In this document: positions 5,945 to 24,391 of the stretch, piece by piece | Layout of the letters: every line of letters begins with the position of its first letter | How positions within the stretch are numbered: the stretch's first letter is position 1 | Assembly: GCA_947625495.1 (NCBI GenBank) | Contig: CANQOQ010000004.1 | Span: forward strand, 1-64,000 | DNA: 64,000 bases | Source: Candidatus Gastranaerophilales bacterium | GTDB taxonomy: Bacteria; Cyanobacteriota; Vampirovibrionia; Gastranaerophilales; Gastranaerophilaceae | Reading direction: 5' to 3' | Made by a program: the position numbers and the translations under genes | Notes under the pieces: model-generated | What the model was told of the DNA's origin: nothing | What the model saw: only the letters and a program-made list of their open reading frames with translations | The model's database searches: none

Positions 5945-7198
5945 TTATTTACGTTTAAATTTAATTTTAAAACCGAGGATTCTTACTACTTTACGATTAT
6001 ATTCATTTCTTATTGAAAAAATCTTCTGTAAAAAAGTAGGCGGTTTAATAGGATATAGTGTTGGTTCAGGAGGTGTAACCGATTCAACATGTTGTTCACA
6101 AGGTTCTCTCCAAGAATCCAATATTGTTGAATCATCAATAGGATCTTTTACATTAAGCTCATTTAATTTTAATGCCAATGATTCACGGTATTTAACAAAT
6201 TTAGGGTCGCCATAATCAACTGTATAATCTTTAATTTTTTGACTACCGGTATATTTTTCGAGGTTATGCCATAATTTTGCAATAAAATCAATTGTTTCTT
6301 CAGGTATTTCTCTATCGCCATAAGGGAAATCAGGACAAAATTTTACCATACCGGGTTTTATTGCAAGCATAGCCATAATAAACGCCCACATATCATCATC
6401 TGTTCTGTTGTCATCAGTAACAACATATTTCAGAACCAAATTTTTTGTACCCGAATTAGCGTATTTAATTAAGTTTGTAAATACATTTGGCATAGTATCA
6501 GTTCCTCTTACTTTTTTGTATGTGGAACATATACCCGAATCAATAGAAGTAACCATACAAATTTTATTTTCTTTAAGTAAATCATAAATTTTCTGACTAA
6601 ATATAGTTGCATTTGAATAAACAACTATAAGACCAAAATTATTATCAATAAGATATGAAATTATTTTGTCAAAATCTTTTAGTGTTGTAGGCTCACCGCC
6701 TGAAAAATCCACCCAATTACCGCCTCTTAACTTGCCTTTTTCTCTAAAAAGTTCAAAAATATCCAAAATGTCGTATTGCGGAGGAACAAGGTTTCCCTCT
6801 TTTGCATAATAACAAAACGTACACCTTTGATTGCAGGCTGTATAATGTTGAATGTTGAAAGAAGCACCAAGACCTTGACCGCCCATATATTCAAAATTTA
6901 CATCCTTATAAGGAACTTCTTTTAACCATATACAATTTTTGCAATTACCCGTAGGGCCATCTGCCAAATCATTTATAGCTGCAAAAAGCTGTTTTCTCCT
7001 TTCAACAATTAAATCATAAGTAACAACTTTATTTTTGATTTCTTCTGCGGTGACTAATGCAGGAGGGAAAAATGTACCTAAACAACAACTGTGTAATCCG
7101 TCTAATTGAAAGCAACATCCGATTTGTATATGTTGACATACTTTTACCATATCATTCGGCTTTAAATCATCTATAGTTCTGGCTTTTTCTAATTGCAT
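5945..7198 (-). CDS. Radical SAM protein, copy A (phase-variable promoter)
   Basis: Radical SAM enzyme of 417 aa; the substrate is unknown. The [4Fe-4S] motif CxxxCxxC is at C122, C126 and C129 ('CNQRCTFC'), followed by the 'SGGEPT' SAM-binding motif. An unusual N-terminal region carries paired cysteines (C21, C28/C29, C38/C39) and C86xxC89, which could hold an auxiliary cluster. The C-terminal tail 'IFSIRNEYNRKVVRILG' ending in basic residues resembles tails I know from capsule and lipooligosaccharide enzymes. I chose the ATG at 7198 because GGAG lies 5 bases before it; the earlier in-frame ATG at 7219 has no such site. It is a near-duplicate of the gene at 7505. A G9 tract lies in its promoter. 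Confidence 0.85.
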   Translation of the reverse strand: MQLEKARTIDDLKPNDMVKVCQHIQIGCCFQLDGLHSCCLGTFFPPALVTAEEIKNKVVTYDLIVERRKQLFAAINDLADGPTGNCKNCIWLKEVPYKDVNFEYMGGQGLGASFNIQHYTACNQRCTFCYYAKEGNLVPPQYDILDIFELFREKGKLRGGNWVDFSGGEPTTLKDFDKIISYLIDNNFGLIVVYSNATIFSQKIYDLLKENKICMVTSIDSGICSTYKKVRGTDTMPNVFTNLIKYANSGTKNLVLKYVVTDDNRTDDDMWAFIMAMLAIKPGMVKFCPDFPYGDREIPEETIDFIAKLWHNLEKYTGSQKIKDYTVDYGDPKFVKYRESLALKLNELNVKDPIDDSTILDSWREPCEQHVESVTPPEPTLYPIKPPTFLQKIFSIRNEYNRKVVRILGFKIKFKRK

Positions 7199-7225
7199 AA
7201 TATCTCCTTCATCTTGCATAAAAAA

Positions 7226-7252
7226 ATGTTATCACCCCCCCCCGAATGTCAA
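7226..7252 (-). promoter_or_regulatory. Poly-G promoter of radical SAM copy A
   Basis: On the minus strand: TTGACA (7247-7252), then TTC, nine G (7235-7243), TGA and TAACAT (7226-7231). This reads as a consensus -35 and an extended -10 (TGn before a 4/6 match) with a 15-base spacer that is mostly the G tract. Gain of two G would give the optimal 17. The arrangement matches phase-variable promoters such as Neisseria porA. The -35, tract and TG are identical in the promoter at 8783. Confidence 0.65.
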
Positions 7253-7424: not shown

Positions 7425-7469
7425 AAGAAAATAAAAACTCGTACACCGACAAGAAGGCGGTGTACGAGT
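7425..7469 (-). terminator. Terminator after radical SAM copy B
   Basis: A perfect 12-bp stem (7437-7448 with 7458-7469) with a 9-base loop. On the minus strand it is followed by TTTTTATTTTC. It lies 36 bases after the copy B stop and separates that gene from copy A, so each copy is its own transcription unit. Confidence 0.9.
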
Positions 7470-7504: not shown

Positions 7505-8755
7505 TTATTTACGTTTAAATTTAATTTTAAAACCGAGGATTCTTACTACTTTACGATTATATTCATTTCTTATTGAAAAAATCTTCTGTAAAAAAGTAGG
7601 CGGTTTAATAGGATATAGTGTAGGTTCAGGAGGTGTAACCGATTCTACATGTTGTTCACAAGGTTCTCTCCAAGAATCCAATACTGTTGAATCATCAATA
7701 GGATCCTTTGCATTAAGTTCATTTAATTTTGTTGCTAAACTTTCACGATATCTTACAAATTTAGGATCACCAAATTCCAAAGTATAATCTCTTGGCATTT
7801 TACCTGTATATTTAATCAAGTTGTGTACCAATTTTGCAATAAAGTCAATGGACTCTTCGGGAATTTCTTTATCTCCATAGGGGAATTGAGGACAGAATTT
7901 GACTATATTAGGTCTAAGAGCAAGCATTGTCATTATAAACGCCCACATATCATCATCTGTTCTGTTATCATCGGTTACAACGTATTTTAACCACAGATTC
8001 TTTGTACCGGAATTACGGTATTTTATCAGGTTATTTAAAACTACGGGAAGTGCATTTATACCTCTTACCTTTTTATATGTACTGCATAAACCTGTATCTA
8101 TTGAGGTCATTAAATAAACTTTATTTTCTTTTAATAAATCATAAAACTTTTGGCTGAAAACAGTACCGTTAGTATAAACACCTATTTGTCCGAAATTATT
8201 ATCGGTAAGGTATGTCAGGATTTTTTCAAAATCTTTTAATAAAGCAGGTTCACCGCCTGAAAAATCAACGAAGTTACCGCCTCTTAACTTGCCTCTTTCT
8301 CTAAAGAGCTCAAAAACTTCCAAAATATCATATTGAGGAGGTATGAGATTCCCTTCTTGAGCATAACAGCAGTATGTACATTTTTCATTACAAGATGTGT
8401 AATGTTGAATATTGAAAGAAGCACCGAGAACTTGTCCGCCCATATATTCAAAATTTACATCCTTATAAGGAACTTCTTTTAACCATATACAATTTTTGCA
8501 ATTACCCGTAGGGCCGTCTGCCAAATCATTTATAGCTGCAAAAAGCTGCTTTCTTCTTTCTACAATTAAATCATAAGTAACAACTTTGTTTCTGATTTCT
8601 TCTGCCGTAACCAATACAGGTGCCATTACAGTTCCTAAACAGCAACTGTGCAGCCCATCCAACTGGAAGCAACAAGCCATTTGAAGATATGGACAAACCT
8701 TCACAATATCATCAGGCTTTAAGTCATTTATTGTCTTTCTTTGTTCTGCTTGCAT
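7505..8755 (-). CDS. Radical SAM protein, copy B (phase-variable promoter)
   Basis: Paralogue of the gene at 5945: 416 aa, with the same N-terminal paired cysteines, 'CNEKCTYC' radical SAM motif, 'SGGEPA', and C-terminal tail. The last 240 bases or so and a central N-terminal block are nearly identical to copy A in DNA, while the middle differs more. This points to a recent tandem duplication with patches of gene conversion. It starts at an ATG with AAGGAG 6 bases upstream. It has its own poly-G promoter (8783-8809) and its own terminator. Substrate unknown; a role in modifying a surface polymer is inferred from the tail and the switch. Confidence 0.85.
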   Translation of the reverse strand: MQAEQRKTINDLKPDDIVKVCPYLQMACCFQLDGLHSCCLGTVMAPVLVTAEEIRNKVVTYDLIVERRKQLFAAINDLADGPTGNCKNCIWLKEVPYKDVNFEYMGGQVLGASFNIQHYTSCNEKCTYCCYAQEGNLIPPQYDILEVFELFRERGKLRGGNFVDFSGGEPALLKDFEKILTYLTDNNFGQIGVYTNGTVFSQKFYDLLKENKVYLMTSIDTGLCSTYKKVRGINALPVVLNNLIKYRNSGTKNLWLKYVVTDDNRTDDDMWAFIMTMLALRPNIVKFCPQFPYGDKEIPEESIDFIAKLVHNLIKYTGKMPRDYTLEFGDPKFVRYRESLATKLNELNAKDPIDDSTVLDSWREPCEQHVESVTPPEPTLYPIKPPTFLQKIFSIRNEYNRKVVRILGFKIKFKRK

Positions 8756-8782
8756 AACTACTCCTTTTCAATTCATTTTAAT

Positions 8783-8809
8783 AATATAACACCCCCCCCC
8801 GAATGTCAA
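8783..8809 (-). promoter_or_regulatory. Poly-G promoter of radical SAM copy B
   Basis: On the minus strand: TTGACA (8804-8809), TTC, nine G (8792-8800), TGT and TATATT (8783-8788). This is a consensus -35 and an extended -10 (5/6) with a 15-base spacer. An alternative -10, TATTAT, lies two bases further at spacing 17. Slippage in the G run would change the spacer length and so promoter strength. Confidence 0.7.
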
Positions 8810-13311: not shown

Positions 13312-14790
13312 TTAATTTTTAATATTAATGTTATCTTCACTGTCTGTTTCTTCTGATTCATCAGTGATATAAGACGATATATTATATTTTTTACTTAAAT
13401 CACAGGCTTTTTCTCTATAGTCAAGTTTATTATATATTGTCCATAAGTTATAAATATCTTCCAGGTTCTTATTGCCTTTTTTTAGTGATAATTCATAATA
13501 CTTTAAAGCATTTTTATAACTCTCCATAGTATCATACAAATTCATATACATCTTAGCTATATTTGTACAGATTGTATCAGAATAAGGAGTTTTTTCCATG
13601 TATGTATTAAAATACCTTTGAGCATTCCATAACTTACCCAAATAAAAATTTACCAAGCCTGAAAAGTAATATTTTTCAGGATTATTTCCTGATTTTTTCA
13701 GATAAATTTTTAAATAATCATTACTTCTTTGCAAATATGCAAGTTCTTTCTTTTCAATATCAAAGGAATAATATGACATAGCATAAGCAATTGATGTATA
13801 TAAATACGCATAAGCACTTTTCCCGTATGTATTTATTAATTTATCTATATTGTTCTGTGCTTCTTTCTCATCACCCTCCATTAAATTATAATATATTACA
13901 GCCGTTAATATTGATATATCATAAGGATACTCTTTTATAAGACGCTTAACTTCTTTCTTTGTTTCAGCTTCATTTAATTTTAAAATATTTTGATAAACTT
14001 GATTATTTTCATTCAATTTTATCGGTGAATCATAATATAATTTCGCCTGATTATAATACTCTTGTGCCTTACTTTTATTTTTATGAGCTGCATAGTTTTC
14101 ATAATAATCGCCTAAATTTTCACTTATATTTCCTGCCAGAAGTGAATTTTTGTAAACAAGAGCTTTATCAAGCTCTTTTAATGCTGTTTCAAAATATTCT
14201 CCGGCTTTTTCATAATTTTTATTATCTTTTTCCATTAAACCGAAATAATTATATGCCATTGAAGATATTACTCTATATTTTGGCAAGTCTTTTTCGTTAA
14301 CTATATTTATTGATTTATCCAAAAATTCTTTGGCTAAATAATATTCCCCCATTCCTCTATAGGAATTGCCCATATTTAAATATAATTTAGCAAGTTCATA
14401 CCTGTCTGTTTCGGGATTGCTTTCCTTTTTCTCTTTTGCCTGATTATAATAATCAAATGTTATATCGGTATTATGGTAAACATTTGAATAAATATCTCCA
14501 AGCATACTAAGTATATCAGACTCTAACTCTTTATCATGATTTTTTTCTTTATTTAGAGTATCTATAGCTCTGTTGCAATAATATTTTGCCGTCTTACTGT
14601 CATTCAAAGCAAAAGTAATTCTGCACATATTTAAATAATTTAATGCTGTTTTGTCCTTTTCAAGCGCCTGATTAAAATTTATATAAGCATCCTTAAAATC
14701 ACCTCTTAAAAGATATTCTTGCGACGCATTTACATTTAATCCGCTGTATACCAGCAATAACACCAGAAATAATTTAAATAATAATTTCAT
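13312..14790 (-). CDS. Secreted TPR-repeat protein, 492 aa
   Basis: A signal peptide is clear ('LLFKLFLVLLLVYSG', cleavage probably after VNA). The mature part is a chain of helical tetratricopeptide-like repeats, recognisable by paired 'A..Y...A' helices such as 'YYLAKEFLDKSINI' and 'GEYFETALKELDKA'. TPR arrays usually hold protein partners together; here it would be in the periplasm. It is divergent from the second TPR gene at 14878 and lies upstream of hydC on the same strand. No specific partner can be named. Confidence 0.85.
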   Translation of the reverse strand: MKLLFKLFLVLLLVYSGLNVNASQEYLLRGDFKDAYINFNQALEKDKTALNYLNMCRITFALNDSKTAKYYCNRAIDTLNKEKNHDKELESDILSMLGDIYSNVYHNTDITFDYYNQAKEKKESNPETDRYELAKLYLNMGNSYRGMGEYYLAKEFLDKSINIVNEKDLPKYRVISSMAYNYFGLMEKDNKNYEKAGEYFETALKELDKALVYKNSLLAGNISENLGDYYENYAAHKNKSKAQEYYNQAKLYYDSPIKLNENNQVYQNILKLNEAETKKEVKRLIKEYPYDISILTAVIYYNLMEGDEKEAQNNIDKLINTYGKSAYAYLYTSIAYAMSYYSFDIEKKELAYLQRSNDYLKIYLKKSGNNPEKYYFSGLVNFYLGKLWNAQRYFNTYMEKTPYSDTICTNIAKMYMNLYDTMESYKNALKYYELSLKKGNKNLEDIYNLWTIYNKLDYREKACDLSKKYNISSYITDESEETDSEDNINIKN

Positions 14791-14877
14791 TATTTAACTC
14801 CATTAATAGAAAATTTTACTATATGAATATTCTTATTATTGATATAAAATAAAATTTAAACAAGGAGATAATTCGGA

Positions 14878-17004
14878 ATGAAAAAAATATTGTTAATAAT
14901 ATTATGTATTTTACTTTGTAAAAATACCCTCTATGCTGAAACTGTATATGATGATAACTATAAAGAAAACCCGAATTATCTGATGGGAAATAAATTCCTT
15001 CAAAATTCACAATATTCAAGCGCTATAAGTGAGTTTAAAAAAGCAATAAGAACAAATCCCAATGATACTTCATCATTAATAGGTTTATCAAATTCCTACA
15101 GTATGAGAGCAGCCTACTATAACAATACCGCAAAATCAACGGAAAACGCCATTTCAGATTTAAAATCGGCATTATTTTTCTTAAAATATTTTCCCGATAA
15201 TAACTCTAGTTTTGCTTCCGCTCAAACAATACTCGGTATGGAAAAAAATTTAAAAGCACTGGAAGGAATACAAAATAAACCTATCAGTGCTGATGACAGA
15301 GATAACAGTGCTAAAAATGAGAGAATAAAAGGTGAATTTGCAGCCGCTGCTTATGACTATCATCAAATTAATTCAACTCCAAAATATTCTTTTACCGCTA
15401 ATTCGGCACTGGGTGATATTTATAAAATTTTTAACCGTCCCGAAAAAGCTTTAATATTTTATAAAAAATCGCTTGCCGTTAATCCTGACAGCACCGATAC
15501 TCACTTAAAACTTGCCAGAACTTATGAACAAATGAACGATTTTGACTCCTCTCTCAAAGAATATGATTATGCCTTAAAAACATCATCCGAAAGAGAAGAT
15601 ATATTAAATTCATTAGAAAGAATCTGGCAGAAAAAAGTTGATGAATTTCCAAATGATGCTGAAGCTCACGCAAATCTGGGAGTCGTTTTCCAAAAAGAAA
15701 AAAGATATGTTGAAGCCCTTTCTCAATATCAAAAAGCTGAAGCACTTAACCCTTCCAATCTGAATACTAAAATCAATATAGGAACTTTATATCAGGAACA
15801 AAACAAATTTGATCAGGCTATAAACACTTATGATTCAATACTTAAAGTTCAACCTTATAATTCAAAAGTACTAACTTTTAAAGCAGAATGCCTGCAAAAA
15901 TTAAACAGAAACGATGAAGCAATAGGACTATATAAAACTGCGCTTAATTTAGACCCTCAAAATGCGCAGATTAAAGCACAACTTTTTGAACTCTTAAAAA
16001 ATACAATGCCGACGGAACAAGTCCTTGATTTCTTATATAAAAATGTACAAAACAGCCCTATGAATGCAGATTCATATTATGAATTCGCTTATGAACTCCA
16101 TAAGGCTAATAAAATTGATGACGCTATTGTTTACTATCTTGAAACAATTAAATTGAATAAAAATAAAATTGATGCTTATATTAACCTTTCACAAGCCTAC
16201 AGACAAAAGAAAAATTATGAACAGGCTTTCCAAATTATATCAAAAGCTAAAAACATTGCACCTGAAAATAAACAGGTTATTGAACAATATAATTTAATAT
16301 CCAATGAATATTCATCAAACAGATATTCAGCAGCCTCTAATGCTTTTGAAAGCGGAAATTACAATCAGGCTATTGAACAATATAAGCTTATAAATCCGCC
16401 TACGGCTGATTCATTGCTGGGTATTGCCGCCGCTTATCAGGCTCTTGAAAACTACAATGAAGCTATTAACTTCTATAAAAAAGCTTTAAATCTCTCTCCT
16501 CAAAATCCTGATATTCCTTACTATATAGCTTCTTTATACATTAACCTTAATGATACTGTTAGTGCTAAACCTTATATAGAACAAGCTCTTAATAAAAATC
16601 CTAACAATAAACAAGCTAAAGAAATTTTAAACTATATAAATGAAAAAAATACGGAAGAACAACTTAATAACGCTGTTGAATTATATGACAACAAAAAATA
16701 CAATGAAGCTATAACTCTTTTATCCCAAGTAATTACCGCAAATAACAAGAATGCAACGGCATATTATTACAGAGCTTTATGCTATGATGCTTTAAACAAT
16801 TATAAAAAAGCAATTTCAGATTATAAATTAACACTAAAATATGCGCCTGAAATGGTTATAGCATATTATTCGCTTGCCGTTGACTATGATTCCGTCAGTG
16901 ACTTTAATTCCGCTAAAGAAAACTACAACAAATTTATTGAATTAAATTCAGAAGACAGTGAATACTTAGAATATGCGAAACAAAGAGTTAATGAGTTAAA
17001 ATAA
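14878..17004 (+). CDS. Secreted TPR-repeat protein, 708 aa
   Basis: An N-terminal signal peptide ('KKILLIILCILLCKN', cleavage near YAE) is followed by about 15 TPR units with canonical features such as 'AEAHANLGVVFQKEKRYVEA' and 'ATAYYYRALCYDALNNYKKA'. A strong AAGGAG site precedes the ATG. It is probably a periplasmic scaffold. Its stop overlaps the dus start (TAATG), so the two are co-translated, though the link is likely only operonic. Divergent from the 492-aa TPR gene. Confidence 0.88.
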   Translation: MKKILLIILCILLCKNTLYAETVYDDNYKENPNYLMGNKFLQNSQYSSAISEFKKAIRTNPNDTSSLIGLSNSYSMRAAYYNNTAKSTENAISDLKSALFFLKYFPDNNSSFASAQTILGMEKNLKALEGIQNKPISADDRDNSAKNERIKGEFAAAAYDYHQINSTPKYSFTANSALGDIYKIFNRPEKALIFYKKSLAVNPDSTDTHLKLARTYEQMNDFDSSLKEYDYALKTSSEREDILNSLERIWQKKVDEFPNDAEAHANLGVVFQKEKRYVEALSQYQKAEALNPSNLNTKINIGTLYQEQNKFDQAINTYDSILKVQPYNSKVLTFKAECLQKLNRNDEAIGLYKTALNLDPQNAQIKAQLFELLKNTMPTEQVLDFLYKNVQNSPMNADSYYEFAYELHKANKIDDAIVYYLETIKLNKNKIDAYINLSQAYRQKKNYEQAFQIISKAKNIAPENKQVIEQYNLISNEYSSNRYSAASNAFESGNYNQAIEQYKLINPPTADSLLGIAAAYQALENYNEAINFYKKALNLSPQNPDIPYYIASLYINLNDTVSAKPYIEQALNKNPNNKQAKEILNYINEKNTEEQLNNAVELYDNKKYNEAITLLSQVITANNKNATAYYYRALCYDALNNYKKAISDYKLTLKYAPEMVIAYYSLAVDYDSVSDFNSAKENYNKFIELNSEDSEYLEYAKQRVNELK

Positions 17005-23737: not shown

Positions 23738-24391
23738 TTAATTTGAACTCCAATTGATATTTCTTTTGCAAATTTTAGCAGGGTTGCCTGCTATAAGAAC
23801 ATTTTTTTCATCAAAACTTTTGGTAACAACAGAAGCTGCACCCACAACAGAGTTATCAGAAATATAAGCACGCTTCATAATATATACATTTTCACCTATC
23901 CATACATGATTGCCTATATTTATTCCCGAGGAATTATCAAAACTGGCATTTGTATTATTATCAAATATTTTATGAGGTAATTCGCCGCTTCTTAATTTCA
24001 CTCCAGCTGATATTAAACAATCATTTCCGATTTTTATTTCAGAATTGCTTTGATATGCATAAATAGTCATTTCGGAACATTCCATATTTTTGCCGATTGT
24101 TACGTTTGTATTTTCAACTTTTGCTAATCCGCCTATATCAACTATTAAATTTTTATATAATTTGAATGTATCAATAAATAAAGAATTATTGTTACCTCTG
24201 ATTTTTATTGAAATTTTATTTTTGTCAAACAGTCTGCTAAAAAACCCTTCTATATGTGTGCGGGGGGGGGATTTTTTCAATCTTTGTACGCCTAAAACAC
24301 GAACAGTATTATTATCACCATAAATTTTAACCGTTACGTTTATATTTTTATCGATATTAACTGAATTATTTCTACCCCTGTTTTTAATCAT
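23738..24391 (-). CDS. Hexapeptide-repeat acyltransferase with a C9 tract
   Basis: A 217-aa left-handed beta-helix protein of the serine/sugar O-acetyltransferase type. It shows hexapeptide turns such as 'VTIGKNMECSEMTIYA' and 'INIGNHVWIGENVYI' and the C-terminal 'VVGAASVVTKSF' and 'IAGNPAKICKR' signatures of such transferases, many of which decorate capsule or LPS sugars. The ATG directly follows the aminotransferase stop and shares its GGGAG site, so it is translationally coupled. Codons 41-44 are TCC CCC CCC CGC. Adding one C ends the frame 12 codons after Lys40, and losing one ends it 7 codons after, so the present C9 is the ON state of a likely phase switch. Confidence 0.88.
   Translation of the reverse strand: MIKNRGRNNSVNIDKNINVTVKIYGDNNTVRVLGVQRLKKSPPRTHIEGFFSRLFDKNKISIKIRGNNNSLFIDTFKLYKNLIVDIGGLAKVENTNVTIGKNMECSEMTIYAYQSNSEIKIGNDCLISAGVKLRSGELPHKIFDNNTNASFDNSSGINIGNHVWIGENVYIMKRAYISDNSVVGAASVVTKSFDEKNVLIAGNPAKICKRNINWSSN
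24262..24270 (-). repeat. C9/G9 homopolymer inside the acyltransferase gene
   Basis: Nine G on the plus strand (nine C in the coding strand), 120 bases into a gene in an AT-rich genome that uses other proline codons elsewhere. It is the same length as the two promoter tracts at 7235 and 8792. Confidence 0.95.

Follow-up and report, generated by a model that had tools for sequence, protein, structure and literature searches.

Does a run of nine G residues that separates the two halves of a promoter act as a switch for the gene behind it? The question is raised by a radical SAM gene on contig CANQOQ010000004.1 of a Gastranaerophilales genome (GCA_947625495.1), which lies in the 64,000-nucleotide stretch analyzed here (the window). 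In Neisseria porA and fetA (frpB), the length of a homopolymer between the -35 and -10 elements alters transcription, according to a passage in PMC5320596 that cites van der Ende 1995 and Carson 2000. We describe the promoter and its tract, a twin of the promoter upstream of a neighboring gene, and the related tracts that occur in the genome and in the genus.

Anatomy of the radical SAM promoter

The gene (7505-8755, minus strand) encodes a protein of 416 amino acids with a CxxxCxxC core, a cysteine-rich amino terminus and a carboxy-terminal ILGFKIKFK tail. Its assignment as a radical SAM protein is based on a match to PF04055 (2.1e-17) and on the motif CNEKCTYC; none of the NCBIfam subfamilies among those listed passes its cut-off. 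Upstream of the gene, the string TTGACA-TTC-G9-TGT-TATATT at 8809-8783 of the minus strand, with 15 bases between TTGACA and TATATT, was found on re-reading the sequence exactly as the initial annotation had reported it. The string comprises the -35 element TTGACA (8804-8809), the trinucleotide TTC (8801-8803), the G9 tract GGGGGGGGG (8792-8800) and TGT-TATATT, a candidate extended -10 (8783-8791; TGT at 8791-8789, TATATT at 8788-8783). The Shine-Dalgarno sequence AAAAGGAG (8761-8768) and the start codon (ATG, 8753-8755), which begins 28 bases past the string, were, like the -35 element and TTC, read directly from the minus strand. The whole string is present once in the genome and its core, TTGACATTC-G9, twice.

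The second hexamer of this promoter is ambiguous. TATTAT (8781-8786, minus strand) overlaps TATATT with a shift of two bases and gives a spacer of 17; both hexamers match the consensus at five of six positions, and a consensus scan picks TATTAT (11 of 12 matches for the promoter). TGT-TATATT as an extended -10 is favored over TATTAT, although not proven, because the pattern TGn-TAnnnT is common to three radical SAM promoters of the genome, directly after the tract in each: TGT-TATATT here, TGA-TAACAT in a paralogue and TGT-TATCAT in a third gene. The G9 tract falls within the spacer whichever -10 is chosen. The choice does affect the direction of the proposed switch. It had been suggested that gain of a G would move expression toward its maximum, but this is true only with TATATT as the -10, since TATTAT already gives a spacer of 17; and spacing may matter little if the promoter works through an extended -10, TGT-TATATT.

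Poly-G tracts in the window and the genome

The genome (1.88 Mb in 51 contigs) has a GC content of 31%, and the window one of 31.5%. Within the 64 kb of the window, runs of G or C drop steeply in number up to length 5, are absent at lengths 6, 7 and 8, and reappear as three runs of exactly 9 (7235-7243, 8792-8800 and 24262-24270). The genome contains 40 G runs of at least 7, with lengths of 8 (2 runs), 9 (24) and 10 (14) and none of 7. Under a first-order Markov model fitted to the window, runs of at least 9 are expected 0.03 times per 64 kb and 0.8 times per genome; the genome contains 38, which bears out the view that a G9 is unlikely by chance. The tract of the radical SAM promoter is thus longer than chance allows, and its retention in a diverged twin promoter (see below) marks it as maintained.

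Tracts in the genome were listed by pattern search, and only the stretches around them were taken for analysis. By a mechanical rule, 20 tracts were placed upstream of or near gene starts, 18 within reading frames and the other 2 at opposite-strand starts. The tract-linked genes, as classified by Pfam, include glycosyltransferases of families 1, 2 and 9, acyltransferases, LicD, polysaccharide pyruvyl transferase, TupA-like ATP-grasp, hexapeptide transferase, kelch-type, N6 DNA methylase and radical SAM proteins. The combination of many tracts of at least 8, an AT-rich genome and the placement of many tracts at surface-related genes is that of a poly-G phasome.

Three genes (L092, L096 and L100) encode large repeat-rich surface-type proteins that have the same leader, with a G9 just before or at the putative coding start. 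A near-identical upstream block is found at an N6 DNA methylase gene (L086) and at the gene for a protein without a Pfam match (L095), and carries a G10 after TATTAT. In this block the G10 possibly lies at the transcript start rather than in a spacer, and the methylase could constitute a phase-variable methylation system.

The abundance of tracts differs widely within the order. Among 146 genomes, G runs of at least 9 number 0 to 6 in the 22 from sister families and 0 to 176 in the family to which the window belongs; within one genus, species range from 0 to 119. Loss of mutS was considered as a cause of tract richness and rejected: MutS_I is present in 39 of the 41 genomes of the genus, this one included, so that no general mismatch-repair defect of the mutS kind explains the tracts.

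Frame breaks at coding tracts

For tracts within genes, the frames before and after the run were compared without altering any base. In this genome the two frames are out of register at 8 of 18 coding tracts, where open frames of at least 40 codons follow the run, and in a second species at 6 of 21; out-of-frame loci of the kind expected in a poly-G phasome are therefore found in both, the differences in frame and length being between loci and not between cells. In acyltransferase, glycosyltransferase and other surface-type genes, coding tracts of G9 are in register and those of G10 are often broken. Three tandem acyltransferase genes (L076/L077, contig C8, at about 13600-15860), for instance, share a tract position occupied by G10, G9 and G10 in turn, and the frame continues through the run in the G9 copy alone. 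Two paralogous loci are identical over the 32 bases preceding the run, yet one has G9 and the other G10. As read from the assembled loci, these frame breaks indicate that the tracts of this genome do change in length, as would be expected from slippage.

The window itself contains one coding tract, a C9 on the plus strand (24262-24270) within a hexapeptide acyltransferase gene (23738-24391, minus strand). Its frame is in register, and it is probably a separate on/off switch of that gene. In the second species (G042, L179-L196), similar genes have an ATG followed, after about 20 bases, by a tract of G9-11 and then by a frame some 240 codons long, and this amino-terminal coding tract is present in many copies.

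A twin promoter upstream of the tandem paralogue

The next gene downstream (5945-7198, minus strand) is a tandem radical SAM paralogue, 81% identical to that at 7505-8755; alignment and the ribosome-binding site favor a start at 7198 over one at 7219. It is preceded by a twin promoter, TTGACA-TTC-G9-TGA-TAACAT (7226-7252, minus strand, with the G9 at 7235-7243), whose block TTGACATTC-G9-TG at 7252-7233 was absent from the initial annotation. The upstream regions of the two genes are identical over a stretch of 20 bases (TTGACATTCGGGGGGGGGTG, that is, TTGACATTCG9TG), on either side of which they match at approximately chance level. The TTGACA, tract and TG block is the sole strongly conserved part of the two otherwise diverged promoters.

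Between the two genes lies a 12-bp perfect inverted repeat with a loop of 9 followed by a T-rich stretch (7437-7469, minus strand), which was read from the sequence and is skipped by the terminator scanner, whose loop limit is 8. The repeat is probably a terminator that ends the first transcript, in which case each radical SAM gene would have its own switch.

Related promoters are found elsewhere. The third radical SAM gene of the genome has the promoter TTGACA-GCAC-G9-TGT-TATCAT, and in another species TTGACA-A-G10-AATGC-TATAAT lies upstream of a gene with the same tail (ILGIKFKFK). A short segment like ILGIKIKFK is common to radical SAM, LicD-type and pyruvyl-transferase proteins, which suggests, but does not show, that these proteins have a common work site at the membrane. 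No orthologue of the 7505-8755 gene was found in the genus at E<=1e-60, the remaining matches being about 30% identical. Most genomes of the genus contain 14 to 44 matches to the protein, mostly at this level of identity, and thus a strongly expanded set of enzymes.

The composition of these promoters bears on whether a change in tract length would be felt at all. The tract may slip while expression barely responds, if an extended -10 (TGT-TATATT) or TATTAT at 17 tolerates several lengths. In each of the three radical SAM promoters of the genome, and in most copies of the cassette described below, a TGn stands immediately before the -10, and two overlapping -10 hexamers would themselves confer tolerance. 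However, the perfect TTGACA has been kept between the twins, suggesting that the -35 element matters, and we regard such an insensitive promoter as unlikely.

Spacer tracts across the genus

A second form of tract-bearing spacer, the kelch-type cassette TTGCnn-n-G8-11-TAAAAGTGGTATAAT, was detected in 13 of 41 species of the genus, the reversed control giving 0. The sequence to either side of its tract is strongly conserved, and TGG usually stands before TATAAT. Copies of the cassette, compared using one genome per species, have tracts of 8, 9, 10 or 11 in constant surroundings. The spacer of the cassette at G9 is 19, as against 15 (or 17) in the radical SAM promoter, and the effect of an added G is therefore expected to differ between the two.

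More generally, 10 of 49 upstream tracts in three species fit a promoter pattern (TTG at most 14 bases before the tract, and an extended -10 or TATAAT at most 24 bases after it), whereas random positions fit it in 1.3% of cases and coding tracts in 2 of 45. The pattern was picked after the sequences of this genome had been viewed, a choice that in itself favors it. The nominal probability of 1e-9 for 10 of 49 is too small, since several of the ten are related copies, although at least three forms contribute. Tract-free upstream regions of this lineage gave no clear -35, no preference for 17 bases and no usable consensus above the AT-rich background, and spacer rules could therefore not be calibrated on them.

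The kelch-type cassette was not found in viral contigs; two viral matches to TTGACATTCG7, in DNA of 66% and 45% GC, were judged unrelated. The cassette also turns up on a contig of the same sample series (L161) that had been assigned to Bacilli, probably through a binning error.

The cassette is informative as to whether the G run is instead a fixed regulatory element, such as part of an operator or of a promoter for an unusual sigma factor, with a length held by selection. Such an element would fit the conservation on either side of the cassette tract, and also the twins, whose tracts are both exactly nine long, with TTC before and TG after. It is improbable, however, in that the tract of the cassette varies while its flanks stay the same, and in that tracts of the same kind, some of them with frame breaks, are found within coding genes.

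A probable switch like that of porA and fetA

The explanation that we consider best, and quite probable, is that the locus phase-varies through its promoter spacer, as porA and fetA do, and belongs to a large poly-G phasome. The initial annotation had proposed a porA-like switch, and this part of its reading is supported by a maintained class of about 40 poly-G loci, by the block conserved between the twins and by the recurrence of spacer tracts in the genus; the part that assigned a direction to the gain of a G is not. That the tract is a relic copied with the duplication, or an artefact of unreliable tract lengths in metagenome assemblies, is very improbable: the relatives that bear the cassette are indeed metagenome-assembled genomes in which each length is a population consensus, but the twin block is unchanged while its flanks diverged, and tract abundance tracks phylogeny, from at most 6 in sister families to as many as 176 in this one.

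Under promoter-spacer phase variation, the G9 would be a contingency tract that forms part of the spacer of a sigma-70-type promoter. At replication, single Gs would be gained or lost by slipped-strand mispairing, so that TTGACA and the -10 would change in distance and in helical phase, and the radical SAM gene would consequently be transcribed to an extent that varies randomly from cell to cell. The tandem paralogue, with its own copy of the switch, would allow the two genes to vary independently. The approximately 40 poly-G loci would work either by way of promoter spacers or by way of reading frames, often at genes for surface glycans and surface proteins, and most likely form a set of random on/off switches with which the population can vary its surface. 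We infer from the sequences that the G9 tract slips in the population, that this affects expression and that the radical SAM enzyme has a role at the surface.

The locus has the same anatomy as porA and fetA, a homopolymer between -35 and -10, but it differs in belonging to another phylum, in controlling a radical SAM enzyme instead of an outer-membrane protein, in its possible extended -10 and in that its length variation and effect on expression are predicted. The poly-G phasome of Campylobacter jejuni is similar in its AT-rich genome and its tens of G tracts, many in surface-modification genes; here, in contrast, half of the tracts are upstream of genes, a spacer cassette recurs across species and mutS is present. 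In Treponema pallidum, poly-G tracts upstream of tpr genes have reportedly been proposed as a transcriptional switch. The tracts described here are likewise upstream of genes, but that of the radical SAM promoter sits inside the -35/-10 spacer.

The open-access literature, with most matches judged by title and abstract, yielded no paper on phase variation in Gastranaerophilales or Melainabacteria; the sole joint match is, by its title and abstract, a flagellin survey, and homopolymer in PMC4040986 refers to sequencing errors. As far as this literature goes, a poly-G phasome has not previously been described in the lineage.

Implications for the Gastranaerophilales

It is fairly likely that gut Gastranaerophilales, uncultured non-photosynthetic relatives of cyanobacteria, possess a large poly-G phase-variation system with a dispersed slippery-spacer promoter cassette, which controls families of surface proteins and glycan enzymes, radical SAM enzymes among them. 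The spacer cassette would make a simple reporter test of the way in which promoter strength depends on spacing, and what maintains the tracts could be studied by comparing species of one genus that are rich and poor in them. Phase variation through homopolymers is known chiefly in pathogens and commensals that belong to a small number of phyla. Its use by a tract-rich family of gut commensals from the cyanobacterial phylum would mean that the strategy arose in, or spread to, lineages far removed from these, and the poly-G system could account for strain-level surface variation in this uncultured gut lineage.
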